DNA of 64,000 nt from Actinacidiphila yanglinensis (GTDB taxonomy: Bacteria; Actinomycetota; Actinomycetes; Streptomycetales; Streptomycetaceae): positions 434,001 to 498,000 of the forward strand of contig NZ_FNVU01000001.1 in the NCBI RefSeq assembly GCF_900107965.1, in the 5' to 3' direction. Made by a program: the position numbers and the translations under genes. The notes under the pieces are model-generated. The model saw nothing but the letters and a program-made list of their open reading frames with translations, did not search any database and was not told where the DNA came from. The first letter of the stretch is position 1. Every line of letters begins with the position of its first letter. Below, piece by piece: positions 5,890 to 14,854 of this stretch.

Positions 5890-6675
5890 TCAGTGCTTCC
5901 AGAACTGGAAAAGGAAGTAGCCGTACCCCGACAGCCAGTCGGGCACGTTGAACCACGTCATCACCGTGTACATCGCGCTGAAGAACTTGACGTTCACCGA
6001 GTGGATGTAGAGCACCCCGAAGACGGCGAGCAGGCCGAACGGCGCGAACGGCTGGACCTGGCGGCGCACCTCGTACGACAGCCAGGGCTCGATCACGCCG
6101 TAGCCGTCCAGCCCGGGGATGGGCAGGAAGTTCAGGATGGCCGCGGTTACCTGGAGCAGCGCGAGGAACCCGAAGGCGGCCCGGAACTCCTGCGGCCAGG
6201 AGTCGGTCACGCCGAAGGCGAAGGGCAGCATCAGGGCGACGGCGAAGAGCACGTTGGTGAGCGGGCCCGCCGCGGAGATCAGGCTGTGCCGGACCCGGCC
6301 GGGGATGCGGTGCCGCTCGATGAGGACGGCGCCGCCGGGCAGGCCGATACCGCCCATGATCACGAAGATCACCGGAAGCACTATCGACAGCGCCGCGTTG
6401 GCGTACTTCAGCGGGTTCAGGGTGAGGTAGCCCTTGGCCTCGACGCTGGTGTCGCCGCTGTGCCAGGCGGTGCGCGCGTGCGCGTACTCGTGCAGGCACA
6501 GCGAGAACAGCCAGCCGGAGACGACGAAGAGGAACACCGCGAAGCCGCCGTCGGACGCGTAACCGGTCCACACGGCCCAGCCGGAGACCAGCATCACCGC
6601 GGTGATCCCGAGGAACACCGGGCTGATCCGGCGGTTCTCGCCTCGTCGGGTCATGCGCAGCGGGGTGACGGTCAT
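5890..6675 (-). CDS. Site-2-protease-family (M50) integral membrane metalloprotease
   Basis: The 261-residue polytopic protein has the zinc-binding HEYAH (residues 62-66) inside a membrane helix and the third-ligand motif NFLPIPGLDG (about 182-191), the two signatures of M50 intramembrane proteases. GPLTN at 138-141 is the conserved segment between them. There is no PDZ domain, so it belongs to the compact group III type often annotated as site-2 protease family protein. AAGGAG precedes the ATG at 6675. It probably cleaves a membrane-spanning substrate such as an anti-sigma factor; the anti-sigma factor at 12.6-13.4 kb is a candidate only by proximity. Confidence 0.87.
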   Translation of the reverse strand: MTVTPLRMTRRGENRRISPVFLGITAVMLVSGWAVWTGYASDGGFAVFLFVVSGWLFSLCLHEYAHARTAWHSGDTSVEAKGYLTLNPLKYANAALSIVLPVIFVIMGGIGLPGGAVLIERHRIPGRVRHSLISAAGPLTNVLFAVALMLPFAFGVTDSWPQEFRAAFGFLALLQVTAAILNFLPIPGLDGYGVIEPWLSYEVRRQVQPFAPFGLLAVFGVLYIHSVNVKFFSAMYTVMTWFNVPDWLSGYGYFLFQFWKH

Positions 6676-6976: not shown

Positions 6977-9900
6977 GTGCGATACACGATCCTCGGCCCC
7001 ACCCAGGCCCTGCGGGACGACGGCGGGGCCGTCGCCCTGGCCGGCGGACGCCTGCGCGCGCTGCTGACCTCGCTGGCGCTGCGGCCCGGCCGGGTGGTCG
7101 GCACGGACGTCCTCATCGACGAGGTGTGGGACGGCGCACCGCCCGCGGGGGCCGTCGGGGCGCTCCAGGCGCTGGTCGGGCGGCTGCGGCGGGCGCTGGG
7201 GCACGACGCGGTCGGCTCCTTCGAGGGCGGCTACCGGCTGGAGGCCGCCCGCGACGACGTGGATCTCTACCGCTTCGAACGGCTGGCCGAGGAGGGTGCC
7301 CGGGCGCTGGCCGACGGCGACGCGGTGAAGGCGGTGGGCCTGCTCGGCGACGCGCTCGCGCTGTGGCGCGGCCCCGCCCTGTCCGACCTGCCGGACCGGG
7401 GAACCGCCGCGGTACGCAGCGAGGCCCTGCGGCTGGACGCCCGCCGGCAGCGGCTCACCGCGGAACTCGCCCTCGGCCGGGCCGCGCAGGTGCTGCCCGA
7501 ACTCGCCGAACTGGCCGCCGCCCACCCGCTGGACGAGCCGCTTCGCGCCCTGCACATCCGGGCCCTGCGCGCCGCCGGACGCACCGCCGAGGCACTCACC
7601 GCGTACGAAGCGGTCCGCCGCGACCTCGCCGACCGGCTCGGCACCGATCCCGGTGGCGAGCTGCGCCGGCTGCACGCCGAACTGCTCCGCCCGGCGCCAC
7701 CGGAGCCCGCGCCCCCCGTCTCGAACGGCGGGGACGGCCGCCTCGTGCAGCCGGCCGGCGACGGCGCCCCGGCCGGGTGGAGGTACGACCGCGCGCTGCC
7801 CGTTCCGGCGGACGGCCCCGGCCGGACCGGCCGCGAGCCGCCCCGGGCCGCCGCGCCCGCCCGCGGCGCCGGCAACGCCCGGGCCCGGCTGACGAGTTTC
7901 GTCGGGCGCGAGAGGGACCTCGCGGCGGTACGGCAGGACCTGGCGCAGGGGCGGCTGGTGACGATCACCGGCCCGGGCGGCACCGGGAAGACCCGGCTCT
8001 CCCAGGAGGCCGGGGACCTGGTGGGCGGCCGCTGGGCGGACGGCGTCTGGTATGCCGAGCTGGCCCCGGTGAGCGACCCGCGCACCCTCCCCGAGGCGGT
8101 GATCAGCTCGCTCGGGCTGCGCGAGACGCTGCTGCACTCCGGCAGCGCGGCCGAGGCGGCGATCGCGGCGGAGACCGGCCCGCGCGACGCCACGCGGCAG
8201 CTCACCGACTACTGCGTCGGCCGCGAACTGCTGCTCGTCCTGGACAACTGCGAGCACGTCATCGACGCCGCGGCGACCCTCGCGGAGTCGCTGCTGGCGA
8301 ACTGCCCCGGCCTGTCGGTGCTGGCCACCAGCCGCGAACCGCTCGGCGTACCGGGGGAGTTGGTGCGGCCGCTGGACCCGCTGCCGGACCCGACCGCGCT
8401 GCGCCTGCTCGCCGACCGGGGCGCCGCGGCCCGCCCCGGCTTCTCCGTGGACGACGACCCGGTGGCGTGCGCCGAGCTGTGCCGGCGGCTGGACGGCCTG
8501 CCGCTGGCGATCGAGCTCGCCGCGGCCCGCCTGCGCAGCCTGTCGCCCCGGCAGCTCGCCGACCGCCTCGACGACCGCTTCCGCCTGCTCACCGGGGGCA
8601 GCCGCACCCTGCTGCCCCGGCAGCAGACCCTGCGCGCCGTGGTCGACTGGTCCTGGGACCTGCTCGACCCCGCGGAGCGCGTCCTGCTGCGCCGGCTTGC
8701 CGTCTTCCGCGGCGGCTGGACCCTCGACGCGGTCGAGGCGGTCTGCGCGGACCCGGAGGAGCCAGGGGACCCGGAGGACACCGAGAATGCGGGGGACGCC
8801 GAGGACTCAGCGCCTTCCGCGGACCCCGAGGAGCCCGCGGCCCCCGGCGCCCCGGACGGCGCCCCCTCCGCGGAGCGGATAACGTCACCGGACGCCGCCG
8901 CCCTCCTCGCCTCCCTTGTCGACAAGTCGCTCGTCCTGGCCGACCGGGACGAGGACGGCTCCCGCTACCGGATGCTGGAGACCATCTCCGAGTACGCCGC
9001 CGAGCGCCTCGACGCGTCCGGCGAGCGCGCCCGGGTCGAGCGCCGCCACGTCGGCTACTTCCGCGAGTACGTCCGCACCGCCGACCCGAAGCTGCGCGGG
9101 CGCGGCCAACTGGTGTGGTTCGAGCGGCTGGAGCGCGAGCACGACAACCTGCGGGCGGCGCTGCGAAGGGCGGTGGACGCCGGTGACGAGCAGGAGGGGC
9201 TGATGCTCGTGATCGGCTGCGCCTGGTTCTGGGAGGTGCGCGACTACGCCTCGGAGCGCCGCCACTGGCCGGCCGCGGTGGCCGCGCTCGGCCCGGACCC
9301 GTTCGAGGCGCCGCCGAGCCTGGAGCCGCTGGAGCGCGGCCCGCTGGACGACCCGCCGCCGCTGACGGGCGAGCGGCTGCTCGAGGCGCGCCGGCACCTC
9401 CGGGTGATCGAAATGGCCTCCCACGAAGGCGAGTCCGACTGGTGGAACGACCCCGACGTGGCCCGGATCGGCGCCGCCCTGATCGCGACCTACCCCGGGA
9501 ACCTGCCGCAGTCCGCCCGGCAGCCGGGCATCTCCCGCCCCTTCGGTGCCTTCTTCTCCGGTGACTTCGAGCGGCTGCCCGTCCTCGTGGACGAGACCAT
9601 CGAGTGCTGCCGCACCTTCGGCCGTACCTGGGAACTCGCCTACGTCCTGCAACTGCGCGCGAAGATCAACAACGACGTCAGCGAGCGGATCGACCAGTCG
9701 ATGGCGGACATCGTGGAGAGCCGCCGGCTGTTCGAGCAGCTCGGCGACGAGTGGGGCACCGCCGAGACGATGTCGGCCGAGGCGGAGGCCGCGGGCAACG
9801 CGGGCGACTGGGAACGGGCCATCCGCTGCTGCCGGGAGGGCATCGCGCTGGCCCGCAAGATGGGCGCGCACCAGCACGTGCCGGTGCTGACCGTCCGGCT

Positions 9901-10540
9901 CGGCGAGGCGATGGCCGACACCGGCCGGCTGGAGGAGGGCGAGCAGGTGCTGCGCGAGGGCATCGCGGACGCCGAGCGGTTCGGCTCGTCCGGCGACGGC
10001 GCCGCCTTCTATGGCAAGGTGCTGCTCGCGGGGCTGATCAGCCGCCTGGACCGGGTGCCCGAGGCGATCCGGCTGATCGAGGACACCATCGCCGCGAGTT
10101 CCGGCGTCCCCGGGTTCGTGGTCGGGATGCTCAACGGGATGCGGGGCTACCTGATCGGCCGCCTGGGAGACCCGGCCGGCGGCCTCGCCCTGCTGGCCGA
10201 CGGCATGGCCGAGCTGGGCCGCCACCCGCTGGCCAACGTGATCACCCCCCGGATCGCGATCGTGATGGTGCCCGGCGCGGTGGAGCTGCTGGTGATGCTC
10301 GCCGAGGCCGAGGCCGAGCCCGGCGCCAAGCCGGAGCGGCTGACCCGCGCCGCGGTACTGCTCTCCGCCCATGACCGGCTCCGCCCGCTGGCGATCGCGC
10401 CGCTGGAGGCCCGCGACATCGCGGGCGTCCGCGACCGGCTGCGCGCGCTGCTCGGCGAGGACGGGTACACCGCCGCGTACGCGAAGGGCGACGGCCTCGG
10501 GGTGCCCGAGACCGTCGCCCTGATGCGCGACGTGGACTGA
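6977..10540 (+). CDS. AfsR/SARP-family transcriptional regulator with NTPase and TPR-like regions
   Basis: The 1187-residue protein has an OmpR-like winged helix (about 1-90) with the SARP start LGPTQALRDDG, a bacterial transcriptional activation domain (about 95-240, ending GTDPGGELRRLHAELL), an NB-ARC/STAND NTPase with P-loop GPGGTGKT (332-339) and Walker B LLLVLDNCEH (418-427), and a long helical C-terminal half with TPR-like character. Such proteins activate secondary-metabolism or transport genes by binding heptamer direct repeats. A Glu/Pro/Asp-rich stretch (591-636) interrupts the winged-helix segment after the NTPase. The GTG start has no Shine-Dalgarno. It converges on the ABC exporter operon, whose upstream region holds an 11-bp-phased repeat array. 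Confidence 0.93.
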   Translation: MRYTILGPTQALRDDGGAVALAGGRLRALLTSLALRPGRVVGTDVLIDEVWDGAPPAGAVGALQALVGRLRRALGHDAVGSFEGGYRLEAARDDVDLYRFERLAEEGARALADGDAVKAVGLLGDALALWRGPALSDLPDRGTAAVRSEALRLDARRQRLTAELALGRAAQVLPELAELAAAHPLDEPLRALHIRALRAAGRTAEALTAYEAVRRDLADRLGTDPGGELRRLHAELLRPAPPEPAPPVSNGGDGRLVQPAGDGAPAGWRYDRALPVPADGPGRTGREPPRAAAPARGAGNARARLTSFVGRERDLAAVRQDLAQGRLVTITGPGGTGKTRLSQEAGDLVGGRWADGVWYAELAPVSDPRTLPEAVISSLGLRETLLHSGSAAEAAIAAETGPRDATRQLTDYCVGRELLLVLDNCEHVIDAAATLAESLLANCPGLSVLATSREPLGVPGELVRPLDPLPDPTALRLLADRGAAARPGFSVDDDPVACAELCRRLDGLPLAIELAAARLRSLSPRQLADRLDDRFRLLTGGSRTLLPRQQTLRAVVDWSWDLLDPAERVLLRRLAVFRGGWTLDAVEAVCADPEEPGDPEDTENAGDAEDSAPSADPEEPAAPGAPDGAPSAERITSPDAAALLASLVDKSLVLADRDEDGSRYRMLETISEYAAERLDASGERARVERRHVGYFREYVRTADPKLRGRGQLVWFERLEREHDNLRAALRRAVDAGDEQEGLMLVIGCAWFWEVRDYASERRHWPAAVAALGPDPFEAPPSLEPLERGPLDDPPPLTGERLLEARRHLRVIEMASHEGESDWWNDPDVARIGAALIATYPGNLPQSARQPGISRPFGAFFSGDFERLPVLVDETIECCRTFGRTWELAYVLQLRAKINNDVSERIDQSMADIVESRRLFEQLGDEWGTAETMSAEAEAAGNAGDWERAIRCCREGIALARKMGAHQHVPVLTVRLGEAMADTGRLEEGEQVLREGIADAERFGSSGDGAAFYGKVLLAGLISRLDRVPEAIRLIEDTIAASSGVPGFVVGMLNGMRGYLIGRLGDPAGGLALLADGMAELGRHPLANVITPRIAIVMVPGAVELLVMLAEAEAEPGAKPERLTRAAVLLSAHDRLRPLAIAPLEARDIAGVRDRLRALLGEDGYTAAYAKGDGLGVPETVALMRDVD

Positions 10541-10558: not shown

Positions 10559-11392
10559 TCAGGTCCTCTTGCGGAACCGGGCGACCGCCAGCGGCGCCGT
10601 GACCACGGTGATGCCGACCGACCAGGCCACCACCATCCACACCGAGTGCGCCACCGCGCCGCCGTTGATCAGCGCCCTGGAGGCGTCGGCGAGGTTGGAC
10701 AGCGGGTTGAACTTGGTGAAGCTCTCCAGCCAGCCCGGCATCGTGGTCGGCTTGGCGAAGATCGAGCTGCCGAACTGCAGCGGCATGAGCACGAGCATGG
10801 CCACCCCCTGGACCGCCTGGGCCGTCTTCATCGTCAGGCCCAACAGAATGAAGATCCACATCAGTGAGGCACCGAAGAACAGCGACAGCACGATCGCCAT
10901 CAGCAGGTGCGGTACGTCCGTGCCGATGTTCATGCCGAGCGCGAAGCCCATGCCGAGCAGGATCCCGATGGCGATCACCATCCGGCCGACCTCGACCAGG
11001 ATCTTCGCGATCAGCACCGAGGACCGGGCGATCGGCATCGTCCGGAACCGGTCCATGACCCCCTTCTGGAAGTCGTCGTTGATCCCGGTGCCGACCGCCA
11101 TGGAGATGTTCATGCCCATCATCGCCATCAGCCCGGGCACCACGTAGTCCACGTAATCGTGCTGGTGCCCCTTGCCGGAGACCGCGCCGCCGAAGACGTA
11201 GACGAACAGCAGGGTGAAGATCACCGGCATCAGCAGGACGTCGAACATCGACTCCGGGTCCTGCTTGATCTGCAGCATGTTGCGGCGCGCCAGTGCGCCG
11301 ATGTGCCGCATGTTGGCCCGCAGGCCGATCCTGCCCTCGCTCCCGGCGGCCTTCGCCGGCGCGCCGGTCAGTGTGGCCGTAGCCGCGCTCAT
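10559..11392 (-). CDS. ABC-2 type exporter permease (DrrB-like)
   Basis: The 277-residue membrane protein has six predicted helices and the ABC-2 pattern: an N-terminal amphipathic RNMLQIKQDPESMFDVLL, then hydrophobic segments including VFGGAVSGKG and LLMAIVLSLFFGASLMW, and the conserved FNPLSNLADASRAL before the last helix. It should pair with the ATPase upstream to export a hydrophobic compound, as in daunorubicin-resistance transporters. Its ATG overlaps the ATPase stop by four bases (ATGA), so the two are translationally coupled. The gene ends 18 bp from the SARP stop, tail to tail. The substrate is unknown. Confidence 0.92.
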   Translation of the reverse strand: MSAATATLTGAPAKAAGSEGRIGLRANMRHIGALARRNMLQIKQDPESMFDVLLMPVIFTLLFVYVFGGAVSGKGHQHDYVDYVVPGLMAMMGMNISMAVGTGINDDFQKGVMDRFRTMPIARSSVLIAKILVEVGRMVIAIGILLGMGFALGMNIGTDVPHLLMAIVLSLFFGASLMWIFILLGLTMKTAQAVQGVAMLVLMPLQFGSSIFAKPTTMPGWLESFTKFNPLSNLADASRALINGGAVAHSVWMVVAWSVGITVVTAPLAVARFRKRT

Positions 11393-12456
11393 ACCGAGAC
11401 CTCCACCTTCTGGTCGGTGCCCGCCGCGCCGTCCGCCGCGTGGCCGCTGCTGCCGGGGTCCTGCGCGTCCTGCGCGTCCTGGGGTGCCGACGCCTTCTCG
11501 CCGGTCACGGCCAGGAACACCTCGTCCAGGCTGGGCAGGTGCGTTTCGATGTGGGCGATGCCGAAGCCCCGCCCGCCGAGCATGCCGACCACGGCGGTGA
11601 GCTGGTCGTCGCTGAGGATCGGCACGCTGACCAGGCCGCTGTCGTCGGCACGCGCGCCGGCGACCCCGTCGAGACCGGCCTCGGCGATCGCCGCGACCAT
11701 CGCCGGGGCGGCCGAGGACCGGCTCGGCCGGATCAGCAGGGTCCGCCCGCCGACCTTCGCCTTGAGCTCGGCGACCTTGCCACCGGCGATGATCCGGCCG
11801 CGGTCGATGATCGTCAGCTCGTGGGCGAGCTGCTCGGCCTCCTCCATGTACTGGGTGGTGAGCAGCACGGTCGCGCCGTCGGCGACCATCCGCTGCACCT
11901 CCTCCCACACCTCGTTGCGGGTGCGCGGGTCGAGGCCGGTGGTCGGCTCGTCGAGGTAGAGCACCGCGGGGTGGCCGATCATGCTGGCCGCCAGGTCGAG
12001 GCGGCGGCGCATCCCGCCGGAGTACTGCATCGCGGGCCGCTTGGCCGCCTCGGTGAGCGAGAACCGCTCCAGCAGCTCGTCGGCGCGCGCCCTGGCCGCC
12101 TTGGCCGGGAGGTCGAGCAGCCGCCCGATCATGTAGAGGTTCTCCCGGCCGGACAGCTTCTCGTCGACCGAGGCGTACTGCCCGGTCAGGCCGATCACCC
12201 GGCGCAGCTGCCGGGGCTGCTTGAGTACGTCGAACCCCGCCACGCGGGCGGTGCCGGCGTCCGGCTGCACCAGCGTGGACAGCACCCGCACCAGCGTGGT
12301 CTTGCCGGCCCCGTTCGGGCCGAGCACACCGAGAACCGTGCCCCGGCGCACGTCCAGATCCACCCCGTCGAGCGCTTTGGTCGGGCCGTAGTGCTTGACC
12401 AGACCGCGCACCTCGACGGCGGTGGTCCCACCGTCTTCTGTCAGTCGCGTCGTCAT
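11389..12456 (-). CDS. ABC-2 type exporter ATP-binding protein (DrrA-like)
   Basis: The protein (355 residues) powers the adjacent permease. It shows Walker A GPNGAGKTT, the Q-loop in GLTGQYASVDE, the signature YSGGMRRRLD, Walker B VLYLDEPTTGLDP and the H-loop region TTQYMEEAEQ, followed by a DrrA-like C-terminal domain and a charged tail. The GLTGQYASVDEKLSGREN wording is typical of the daunorubicin-resistance subfamily. The ATG at 12456 is preferred over a GTG at 12486; neither has a strong Shine-Dalgarno, and the ATG may belong to a short-leader transcript. An octamer array lies directly upstream (12478-12535). Confidence 0.92.
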   Translation of the reverse strand: MTTRLTEDGGTTAVEVRGLVKHYGPTKALDGVDLDVRRGTVLGVLGPNGAGKTTLVRVLSTLVQPDAGTARVAGFDVLKQPRQLRRVIGLTGQYASVDEKLSGRENLYMIGRLLDLPAKAARARADELLERFSLTEAAKRPAMQYSGGMRRRLDLAASMIGHPAVLYLDEPTTGLDPRTRNEVWEEVQRMVADGATVLLTTQYMEEAEQLAHELTIIDRGRIIAGGKVAELKAKVGGRTLLIRPSRSSAAPAMVAAIAEAGLDGVAGARADDSGLVSVPILSDDQLTAVVGMLGGRGFGIAHIETHLPSLDEVFLAVTGEKASAPQDAQDAQDPGSSGHAADGAAGTDQKVEVSV

Positions 12457-12477
12457 GTCCACCACACTGCACGACCT

Positions 12478-12535
12478 CACCGACACGCCACCGATATCCC
12501 ACCGACAGCGAGGTGTCGGCGGCGTATCGGCGGTC
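12478..12535. promoter_or_regulatory. Phased array of five octamers, candidate operator of the ABC exporter
   Basis: CACCGAyA starts at 12478, 12489 and 12500, and TRTCGGCG starts at 12514 and 12525. Every step within each set is exactly 11 bp. The two sets are inverted about 12510, giving arms 12489-12507 and 12514-12532 with 15 of 19 matching. In the exporter's direction the repeats read TGTCGGTG, TATCGGTG, TGTCGGTG, ending 22 bp before the ATG; a weak -10 (CAGTGT) follows 7 bp after the last TCGGTGA. An 11-bp pitch is what SARP regulators use, but a TetR-type operator is also possible. Confidence 0.55.
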
Positions 12536-12640: not shown

Positions 12641-13369
12641 TCAGCTGGTGGCGCCGCGCGGCCGGTCGGTGGGCTGGGTGCCCGACTGCGGGACGCTCAC
12701 CAGCAGCGCGCCGTCGTCGGTGCGCACCTCGAAGCGGCTGATCGAGTTCTTCGGCATGCTGGTCGCGCCGTGCACGGTGAGCGGCTTCGGCTGCTCGCCG
12801 GTGCCGTACCCGGCCGCCGGCACCGACCAGTTGGCGACGGTCTCCCGGGTGCTGCCGGGGCCGACGGCGTCCAGGTGGCAGTGCAGCGGGCCGCGCACCC
12901 CGCTGAGCCGCAGGTCGACGGCGGTGCCCCAGGTCCTGTCGGTGACCCCGACGACCGCGGACACTCCCGTCGCCGGGTTGCTCGCCGAGTGCCGCTCGGA
13001 CGGGAAGGCGCTCGCCGACGTGGACGAGCCGCCGCCGTCCTGGGTGGCGATCACCGCGATGGTGGGCCCGCCGACGACCAGCACGGCGGCCGCGGCCACC
13101 GCCAGCAGCCGGCGCCGGCGGCGGGTCCGGCGCTCGGCCGCGACCTGCCGCAGCAGCCGGTCCAGCAGGGCGTCCCCGGGCGGTTCGGGGATGCCGATCC
13201 CGTCCTCGCGCAGCTCCGCGAGGACCGGCACCACGCCGCTCAGCTCGTCCAGCTCCTGCCCGCAGGCCTCGCACTCGGCCAGGTGGGCCTCGAACGCGGT
13301 CATCTCCGCGTCGTCCAGGGCCCCGAGCAGGTAGGCGCCCACGTCGACATGAGGTGTCATCGGTGTCAT
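12641..13369 (-). CDS. Zinc-binding anti-sigma factor, membrane-anchored
   Basis: The 242-residue protein has an N-terminal ZAS-type zinc finger, HLAECEACGQEL (residues about 31-42), a helical region that would clamp the sigma factor, one transmembrane helix (about 93-115) after an Arg-rich stop-transfer stretch, and an outer domain of about 120 residues. Its ATG overlaps the sigma-factor stop by four bases (ATGA). This is the usual partner arrangement, so it should hold the upstream ECF sigma factor inactive. The outer domain has no recognised fold; its HCHLDAVGPGS and TGEQPKPLTVHG segments look beta-rich and may sense the cell-envelope signal. Confidence 0.9.
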   Translation of the reverse strand: MTPMTPHVDVGAYLLGALDDAEMTAFEAHLAECEACGQELDELSGVVPVLAELREDGIGIPEPPGDALLDRLLRQVAAERRTRRRRRLLAVAAAAVLVVGGPTIAVIATQDGGGSSTSASAFPSERHSASNPATGVSAVVGVTDRTWGTAVDLRLSGVRGPLHCHLDAVGPGSTRETVANWSVPAAGYGTGEQPKPLTVHGATSMPKNSISRFEVRTDDGALLVSVPQSGTQPTDRPRGATS

Positions 13370-14031
13370 GACGTGGTCACCCCTCTCTCCTCCAGCGCGT
13401 TCCGTGCGGCGCGCAGGGCGTAGAACACCCGCGACCGCACCGTCCCGGGCGGCAGTCCCAGCTCCTCGGCCGCCTCGTTGACGGTGCGGCCCTTGAAATA
13501 CGTCTCGACGAGTGCCTCGCGGTGCGCGGCCGACAGGTCCTGCAGCGCGTCGGAGATCGTCATCAGGCGCAGCGTACGGTCCAGCTCGTCGCGCGCGGGC
13601 AGCAGGTCGAGCGCGGCGGGCGAGGTCTCGGGCGGCCGGGCCTGCCGGCTGCGGTGGCCGTCGATCACGATCCGCCGGGCGACGGTGACCAGCCACGGCC
13701 GCAGCGACCTGGCCGCCGGGTCGAGCTGGGACGCGCTCTTCCAGGCCCGCAGCAGCGTCTCCTGGACCACGTCCTCGGCGAGGTAGCGGTCGCCCGCCAC
13801 GAGCTTGAGCACGTAGGCGAACAGCGCGCCGGCGTGCTCCTGGTACAGCGCCCGCATGAGGTCTTCCTCGGGGGCGGCGGCCTCGGTCCGGTCCGCGCGC
13901 GCAGGGCCGCCGGGCCCGGCGTGCCGCGGCGCGCCGGACTGGTCCGGGGTTTCCGGAGAGGGACCGTCCACGCGCGCATCTTGCCGCACCCGCGGCTCCC
14001 GGTCGAGTTCGCGTATCGCCGATCGGGACAT
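13366..14031 (-). CDS. ECF-family RNA polymerase sigma factor
   Basis: The 221-residue protein directs RNA polymerase to stress-type promoters. Region 2 is visible in LYQEHAGALFAYVLKLVAGD and DVVQETLLRAWK, and region 4 in LPPGTVRSRVFYALRAARNAL. An N-terminal acidic/Pro-rich tail of about 55 residues precedes region 2. The ATG at 14031 shares its A with the preceding lipoprotein's TGA (TGATG), and the gene overlaps the anti-sigma factor downstream, so all three genes form one tightly coupled operon. I found no clear self-recognised GGAAC/CGTC-type promoter upstream of the operon. Confidence 0.92.
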   Translation of the reverse strand: MSRSAIRELDREPRVRQDARVDGPSPETPDQSGAPRHAGPGGPARADRTEAAAPEEDLMRALYQEHAGALFAYVLKLVAGDRYLAEDVVQETLLRAWKSASQLDPAARSLRPWLVTVARRIVIDGHRSRQARPPETSPAALDLLPARDELDRTLRLMTISDALQDLSAAHREALVETYFKGRTVNEAAEELGLPPGTVRSRVFYALRAARNALEERGVTTS

Positions 14032-14633
14032 CAGTAGCCGTACGACCCGCCGGACGACGTCCCTGTCGTGGCCGGTGCGGAGGTGGTGGCGGCGCCCGAT
14101 CCGCCGCCCGCCTTGGCCTTCGCGCCGGTCGGGGTCACCGCCCACCAGGTGCCGAGGACGCCCTGGCCGGTGGTGTCGCCGGCCTTGCTGTCCTGGGCGT
14201 AGGTGTACAGCGGCCAGCCGTCGAGGGTGAGTTGCTTCACACCGCCGGAACCGGCCACGCTGCCGAGCAGCTTCGGGTCGATGCCGGTGACGTGCGTGGC
14301 GTCGGTGGCGGGCACGGCGGGCCACAGCGCGGCGCACTGGCCGGTGCAGTTCGACTTCGACGGCTTGCTGGTGTCCATGTCGAAGCGGTAGAGCGTGAAG
14401 CCCTTGCCGTCGACGACGATCGTGCCGAGCGAGGCGTCCCGCACGGTGTGCGTCCCGGCGGCGGAGGCGCCCGCGGCGGCCCCCGCGGAGGAGCCCGCCG
14501 AAGGGGACGAGGCCGAGGAGCCGGACGCGCCGGACGAACCGGAGGAGGACGAGCCGCACGCGGCGAGGGTGAGTGCCAGCGCCGCCACGAGGGCGCCGCC
14601 TGCCGCGTGACGACCGCGCGGGGAAACGGTCAT
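14031..14633 (-). CDS. COG4315-like repeat lipoprotein, first gene of a sigma-factor operon
   Basis: The 200-residue product has a lipobox LTLAAC after an n-region MTVSPRGRHAAGG, then a Ser/Gly/Ala-rich linker and two copies of the secreted-repeat motif typical of PF03640: LYRFDMDTSKPSKSNCTG with CTGQCAALWPAV, and LYTYAQDSKAGDTTGQG with WWAVTPTG. These proteins are cell-surface lipoproteins of unknown function. A Gly/Ser/Thr-rich tail ends in SYGY. The start at 14633 is chosen because the signal peptide begins there; the ATG at 14684 would add an unlikely 17-residue extension. It is translationally coupled to the sigma-factor gene. Confidence 0.88.
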   Translation of the reverse strand: MTVSPRGRHAAGGALVAALALTLAACGSSSSGSSGASGSSASSPSAGSSAGAAAGASAAGTHTVRDASLGTIVVDGKGFTLYRFDMDTSKPSKSNCTGQCAALWPAVPATDATHVTGIDPKLLGSVAGSGGVKQLTLDGWPLYTYAQDSKAGDTTGQGVLGTWWAVTPTGAKAKAGGGSGAATTSAPATTGTSSGGSYGY

Positions 14634-14854
14634 GATGACATCCCGAAGGGTGGAAGTTCGCCGCTCAGCGGCGCTCATCCCCACGTACGCAGCCGCGGCC
14701 GGAATGTCTCAAAGTGCGCGCCACATTCTGCGCAGGGCGGCGGGAACCCGGCGAACCGGGCCCCGCCGCCCCGTGTCCCCGCGGGGGTCCCAGAGGCTGA
14801 TCAGGGCCGGACCGGACCCGGCAGACCGGGCCGGACCGTCCCGTGGACCGGACC

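Follow-up and report, generated by a model that had tools for sequence, protein, structure and literature searches.

The stretch of DNA analysed here, referred to as the window, comprises 64,000 nucleotides from Actinacidiphila yanglinensis and contains a regulator gene facing a two-gene exporter unit. On the minus strand, positions 11389 to 12456 encode a 355-residue DrrA/OtrC-like ABC exporter ATPase, identified by Pfam and by the DrrA subfamily model TIGR01188 (370.6 bits, above the curated cut-off of 312.45); its best-scoring model is that of OtrC, NF000106, at 446.3 bits, yet this is below the cut-off of 750. The stop codon of this gene overlaps the start (ATGA) of a DrrB-like ABC-2 exporter permease gene (10559 to 11392, minus strand), assigned with Pfam (ABC2_membrane, 3.3e-29); the permease scores 63.6 bits against the DrrB subfamily model TIGR01247, below the cut-off of 223.05. 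On the plus strand, positions 6977 to 10540 encode a large SARP of 1187 residues, in which an N-terminal winged helix of the OmpR type (Trans_reg_C, 3.9e-07) is followed by BTAD (1.5e-40), the order that defines a SARP, an AAA/NOD-type ATPase and a weak TPR match. The SARP and exporter genes are convergent, as the first-pass annotation of this DNA had described, with 18 bp between the stop codons. Among solved structures, AfsR is the best match of the SARP (chains 8hvr, E = 7e-31, and 8k60, E = 4e-30), and the match to chain 8hvr_I covers SARP residues 1-241 (6.9e-31). Against the AfsR equivalog model NF053617 it scores 156.8 bits versus a cut-off of 1430, with the best stretch confined to residues 1-247; judged by this model, the SARP is no orthologue of AfsR. 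Positions 12641 to 14684, which directly precede the exporter, hold, in the direction of the exporter gene, genes for an ECF sigma factor, a zinc-finger anti-sigma factor and a secreted-repeat lipoprotein.

In front of the exporter lies an array of five octamers. On the forward strand these are CACCGACA at 12478, CACCGATA at 12489 and CACCGACA at 12500, followed by TGTCGGCG at 12514 and TATCGGCG at 12525, with a step of exactly 11 bp within each set; octamers and steps are all as first annotated. On the minus strand, which is the sense of the exporter gene, the layout reads CCGCCGATAcgcCGCCGACAcctcgc-TGTCGGTGgga-TATCGGTGgcg-TGTCGGTG-aggtcgtg-CAGTGT-ggtggac-ATG. It consists of three direct repeats, namely TGTCGGTG (12500 to 12507, distal), TATCGGTG (12489 to 12496) and TGTCGGTG (12478 to 12485, proximal), then 8 bp, a -10-like element CAGTGT (12464 to 12469), 7 nt and the exporter ATG, whose A is at 12456. 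The interval from array to ATG comes to 21 nt, not the 22 bp counted earlier. The inverted octamers, both on the plus strand, stand upstream, 6 bp from the first direct repeat: TGTCGGCG (12514 to 12521), which is helically phased with the direct repeats, and, 11 bp from it, TATCGGCG (12525 to 12532). The earlier description of two sets inverted about one centre holds for two of the three direct octamers, which face the inverted pair about position 12510.5 (arms of 20 nt, 80% complementary and 6 nt apart); it fails for the third, at 12478, which has no inverted partner.

The array is not a chance product. A degenerate 3×11 pattern with up to 3 mismatches finds two matches in the window, namely the direct set and, on the other strand with 2 mismatches, the inverted set (12503 to 12532), and none across 100 dinucleotide shuffles. 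Allowing up to 3 mismatches, a pattern with 27 fixed bases, drawn from the three direct repeats, has a single match in the 9.59-Mb genome, in which its reversed control has none.

As given in PMC10936776 and PMC4393881, SARP-controlled promoters carry direct repeats 11 or 22 bp apart, the 3′ repeat being 8 bp from the -10 element. The window array has this geometry, with 11-bp direct repeats and 8 bp to CAGTGT. It resembles the afs box of afsS in S. coelicolor, which is bound by AfsR, another large SARP with winged helix, BTAD, NOD and TPR (PMC10936776). The solved AfsR structure shows the contacts of a protomer restricted to the first 8 bp of its 11-bp repeat, with the last 3 bp left untouched (PMC10936776), and the octamer-plus-3 pattern of the array matches these contacts. 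The -10 element is weak in both cases (CACTGT in afsS, compared with CAGTGT here; PMC10936776). The downstream afs-box repeat spans -29 to -19 (PMC10936776), and if +1 is taken as the A of the ATG, the proximal octamer occupies -29 to -22, the start of that repeat; the two would thus be equally far from +1 provided that the mRNA is leaderless, as the exporter mRNA probably is. The window differs from AfsR/afsS in its three repeats versus two, in a different octamer, in having an exporter as target and in the extra phased inverted octamers.

We examined the exporter promoter in three sets of loci, namely: a genus set of 35 loci, consisting of the window and one close orthologue (75-87% identity) from each of 34 same-genus genomes; 54 further SARP-exporter pairs, made up of 37 named loci with an exporter match (duplicates removed) and 17 order-level or paralogous loci; and, as controls, 25 exporter paralogues in whose regions no SARP was found. 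Three loci (L072, L074 and L075) on the same contigs as G011, G004 and G027 were dropped before counting. Also left out were 40 of the 80 named SARP loci, in whose regions no neighbour scored above 200 bits as DrrA-like, some of the loci being on short contigs; these SARP relatives look like other SARPs. The layout tested was a repeat that has a similar copy 11 or 22 bp before it and is followed, after exactly 8 bp, by xAnnnT. Searched with a pattern written after the sequences had been seen, it is present in 35/35 genus loci, in 43 of the 54 other pairs and in none of the 25 SARP-less paralogues, 20 of which are second matches with 51-53% identity that look like one paralogous group and so amount to fewer independent controls. 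At other gaps (3-7 and 9-14) it occurs in 0/35 genus loci, in at most 3 of the 54 other pairs per gap and in one of the 25 controls (gap 7), and in shuffled sequences it was found in 0.00, 0.00 and 0.10 loci on average. The first-pass annotation had proposed that a SARP reads the array, to be checked by its conservation wherever the SARP is adjacent. These counts bear out the conservation and, with the published rule including its 8-bp step, lend support to the SARP reading.

A convergent SARP gene lies within the fetched regions (7-15 kb) in 34 of the 35 genus loci, mostly about 1.9 kb from the exporter start and 5-7 kb from it in four; in the remaining locus (L062) it is about 14 kb away in unchanged orientation. 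Three contiguous repeats are present in 33/35 genus loci. Within the genus, the commonest base reaches a frequency of 0.8-1.0 at most octamer positions and about 0.5 at position 7 (T or C), and conservation falls to 0.3-0.6 directly upstream of the repeats. The genus -10 element is CATCGT, CATGGT or CACTGT in 22/35 loci and is separated from the start codon by 6 or 7 nt. The letters of the repeat vary by clade; the pitch is constant. Of the 11 pairs without the strict layout, inspection by eye shows it in L106, L119, L142 and L143, whose letters or copies have diverged beyond what the rule accepts. In L092, L094 and L117 the repeats persist and xAnnnT at 8 bp is missing; L127, L129 and L139 are shifted or have another -10 element; and L099 is ambiguous.

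A weight matrix built from 32 genus sites was scanned over 556,599 bases (the window and 34 regions), keeping the best three matches per strand and region. The exporter promoter scores 42.9-60.2 in 35/35 regions, compared with at most -1.5 away from the promoter region, and the other matches above -1.5 all come from these promoter regions, where they reflect a shifted register or additional or inverted copies of the repeat. The matrix is circular for its training sites and not for the absence of sites elsewhere. The scan speaks for one target near the SARP, and beyond the fetched regions this was covered by the 27-base pattern search only. A weaker test, which asked for periodicity alone (6/8 or better triple identity at lag 11), was positive in 29/34 genus loci, in 34/54 other pairs and in 2 of the 26 loci first called SARP-less, namely L062, later found with a SARP, and L153. 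An excess at lag 10 was seen in 8/54 of the other pairs.

Several related loci deserve separate mention. In same-family L066 (G036), an exporter relative has TGTCAGCG copies upstream of position 6241 and no SARP match in the 15-kb region; this genome has two SARP relatives (about 50% identity), both on other contigs, and the locus may represent a decayed or remotely controlled SARP promoter. Three same-genus genomes carry second, more distant SARP-DrrAB pairs (L071, L184 and L185; SARP about 42% identity), whose arrays are of the TGTCAGCG type with unchanged spacing. In the order-level loci L069, L070, L172-L175, L177, L179 and L180, like repeats stand 22 bp apart and enclose a degenerate copy; the -10 element keeps its 8-bp distance, and by eye the start codon is farther downstream. 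L064 and L065 (G013 and G001) show an exporter ATPase match with one internal TGA.

The recognition helix of the SARP bears on which protein reads the array. In an alignment of 82 out of 88 SARPs (six SARP-linked loci without an alignable DNA-binding part were left out), the thymine-contacting Arg92 of AfsR corresponds to R69 of the SARP in the window and AfsR R94 to R71, both invariant in 82/82. These are the two of six AfsR recognition-helix contacts that are kept; the other four are changed, i.e. R87 to Q64, T88 to A65, S91 to G68 and K95 to R72. Among the 58 loci that passed a stricter 8-bp array test and had an aligned SARP, residue 65 (AfsR T88) goes with the majority base at position 3 of the repeat: Ala is found with T in 53/53 cases, and Thr with A (4) or C (1) in 5/5, the Thr cases being three Kitasatospora, one locus labelled Streptomyces sp. 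CB02056 and one Microbispora, hence few independent events. For residue 68 and base 5, Gly occurs with G (39) or A (4), Ser with A (8/8), Ala with G (4) or A (2) and Lys with A (1). These are plain counts without tree correction, and the loci whose array failed the stricter rule (nine Ala, two Thr, ten Ser and three Arg SARPs) stand outside them. On this comparison, the operator letters and the SARP recognition helix change together. It could be argued that the exporter is driven by another activator with the same spacing rule, e.g. by a SARP encoded elsewhere in the genome, and that the neighbouring SARP is incidental; the genome does carry further SARPs, and other SARP paralogues seem to share the layout with different octamers. 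We consider this very unlikely, since the array tracks the neighbouring SARP and the letters of its repeats sort with the recognition helix of that same protein.

The inverted octamers recur beyond the window. In the 110 bp that precede the first direct repeat, 38 exact inverted octamers are found in 23/35 genus loci, compared with 0.4 expected by shuffling and none in the 25 controls, and 11 inverted pairs are exactly 11 bp apart. Up to 83 bp from the proximal repeat, inverted heptamers stand at distances of 27-28, 37-39, 48-50, 59-61, 70-71 and 83 bp, and 43/43 fall at 4-6 modulo 11, a count in which the 83-bp limit was picked after the list had been seen and related loci share positions; beyond it, 3/12 do, which is the chance level. 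As there are 14 different distances, the phasing does not reflect one inherited arrangement. In 19 of the 37 named loci outside the genus (the other 18 do not fit the search pattern), there are five inverted copies within 83 bp, three of them in the phase class, and phasing is not established there. Such phased inverted octamers go beyond the SARP rule as read here; we read them as probable additional half-sites of the SARP, arranged on a helical lattice.

Two other readings of the inverted octamers were weighed. The first-pass annotation had named a TetR-type operator as a rival; the inverted pair would then be bound by a repressor that controls the exporter. Exporters of the DrrAB kind are often under TetR control, and the arms of the dyad in the window are long and largely complementary. 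Across orthologues, however, the dyad does not keep a fixed spacing: exact inverted octamers are missing in 12/35 genus loci, the gap from the nearest inverted copy to the direct repeats varies (5-6, 15-17, 26-28, 38 and 66), and the elements that are kept are the three direct repeats and the 8-bp step. The inverted octamers do not behave like a TetR dyad, because their distance shifts by whole helical turns between species. Moreover, no TetR match was found in the 16 window proteins scanned with Pfam (a subset of the open reading frames, about 1.3 to 26.7 kb). A TetR operator is therefore highly improbable. The inverted octamers could alternatively form a second SARP promoter that directs a divergent transcript, given their SARP-type letters and frequent 11-bp pitch. 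We give this very little credence: in the window, the closest gene on the upstream side runs in the direction of the exporter, and an opposite-strand xAnnnT 8 bp past the outermost inverted copy occurs in only one of 25 genus loci with copies.

Very probably, then, the array serves the DrrAB-type exporter as both operator and core promoter, and the adjoining large SARP is the protein that reads it. SARP protomers would line up along a single face of the DNA immediately before the -10 element, each occupying one 11-bp repeat, and the bound SARP would recruit RNA polymerase and switch the exporter on, transcription most likely starting at or adjoining the ATG. The NOD-TPR half would be expected to keep the SARP inactive until a signal or its ATP state frees it; AfsR is described as relieved by ATP (PMC10936776). 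The pair would then act as a self-contained sensor-activator-exporter unit. The inverted half-sites may strengthen binding or allow the STAND-type module to oligomerise across the promoter. Autoregulation of the SARP was also considered and rejected: by eye, no such array is present in the 120 bp upstream of ten genus SARP genes, where the best 11-bp triple identity is 6/8 (L035) and at most 4/8 in the other nine.

The pairing of a SARP with an exporter has parallels in known systems. The SARP DnrI reportedly binds a DrrAB exporter gene of the daunorubicin cluster (Prija 2017, cited in PMC10972967), which likewise ties a SARP to a DrrAB-type exporter. DnrI is located in a biosynthetic cluster, whereas in the genus and in Streptomyces the pair described here mostly lies close to panB, and its SARP is of the large NOD-TPR type. 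MalT is, like this SARP, a NOD-type activator, although its DNA-binding domain is not a SARP winged helix. In MalT, a STAND activator, ligand and ATP lead to an oligomer that binds promoter sites cooperatively (PMC10427625), and by analogy the NOD (STAND) part of the SARP might oligomerise over the exporter promoter via the inverted sites. In the oxytetracycline cluster, the gene of the SARP OtcR adjoins the exporter gene otrB, and OtcR-controlled promoters have 11-bp repeats with 8 bp to the -10 element, as here (PMC4393881). Unlike the present case, OtcR is described there as the activator of the oxy genes, and otrB encodes an MFS pump tied by location to OtrR, of the MarR family (PMC4393881).

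A match to panB no more than 5 kb from the exporter was seen in 32/35 genus loci and 26/37 named loci, and in none of the 17 order-level or paralogous pairs or the 25 controls. Given this proximity in the genus and in most Streptomyces, the pair looks like a stable component of the chromosome, with no evident membership of an antibiotic cluster; its surroundings differ in more distant actinomycetes. In view of this setting, the proposal of the first-pass annotation that the unit may handle a metabolite is best kept as a conjecture. Among the open-access matches listed, as titles and abstracts and with subscription journals outside the scope, there was no description of the SARP-exporter pair or of phased inverted SARP half-sites. 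For the S. coelicolor locus numbers SCO2257-2260, no open-access paper was found, and we therefore draw no link to a named S. coelicolor gene. It is conceivable, if rather doubtful, that the pair represents a widespread actinomycete class of self-contained, single-target SARP-exporter switches outside antibiotic clusters, in which a STAND-type SARP would sense a compound and turn on one adjacent pump from a leaderless promoter, phased inverted half-sites letting the NOD module build a MalT-like array of protein over the promoter. SARPs are known as switches of antibiotic clusters, and here a large SARP is tied to one exporter. With an operator that is legible by eye, the pair is a clean system in which to ask to what signal the NOD-TPR half of large SARPs responds, and the loci provide recognition helices with their matching operators, as a natural series, for reading the SARP DNA code. 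They also suggest a simple rule for finding SARP targets: 3 × 11 bp, 8 bp, -10 element, 6-7 nt and ATG.

The same layout, built from different octamers, seems to serve SARP paralogues that have other neighbouring genes. A scan of ten SARP-paralogue loci gave two sites at lag 11 and none at six other lags, while in the 40 named loci without DrrA the scan was at noise level (lag 11: 4, lag 9: 4, lag 12: 5). Repeats of the GGTCAGCG type with 11-bp pitch, followed by 8 bp, a -10 element and 6-7 nt to the exporter ATG, stand before MFS exporters, by eye in L200, L202, L204 and L205 and by scan in L202, L205 and L150; these SARP-MFS loci are at 2732-4276 in L205, 3741-5387 in L202 and 11676-13229 in L150. 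The same type of repeat also precedes the gene of a FAD-binding protein (L149). Repeats of the TGTCGACG type, in the same layout, precede the gene of a siderophore-interacting protein convergent with the SARP (L107, 12163-13107, identified by Pfam; L116, 12042-12995, identified by its like start). Finally, just upstream of the SARP-MFS units in L204 (upstream of 5616) and L205 (upstream of 7588), sequence resembling the 3′ end of a tRNA gene was seen by eye.
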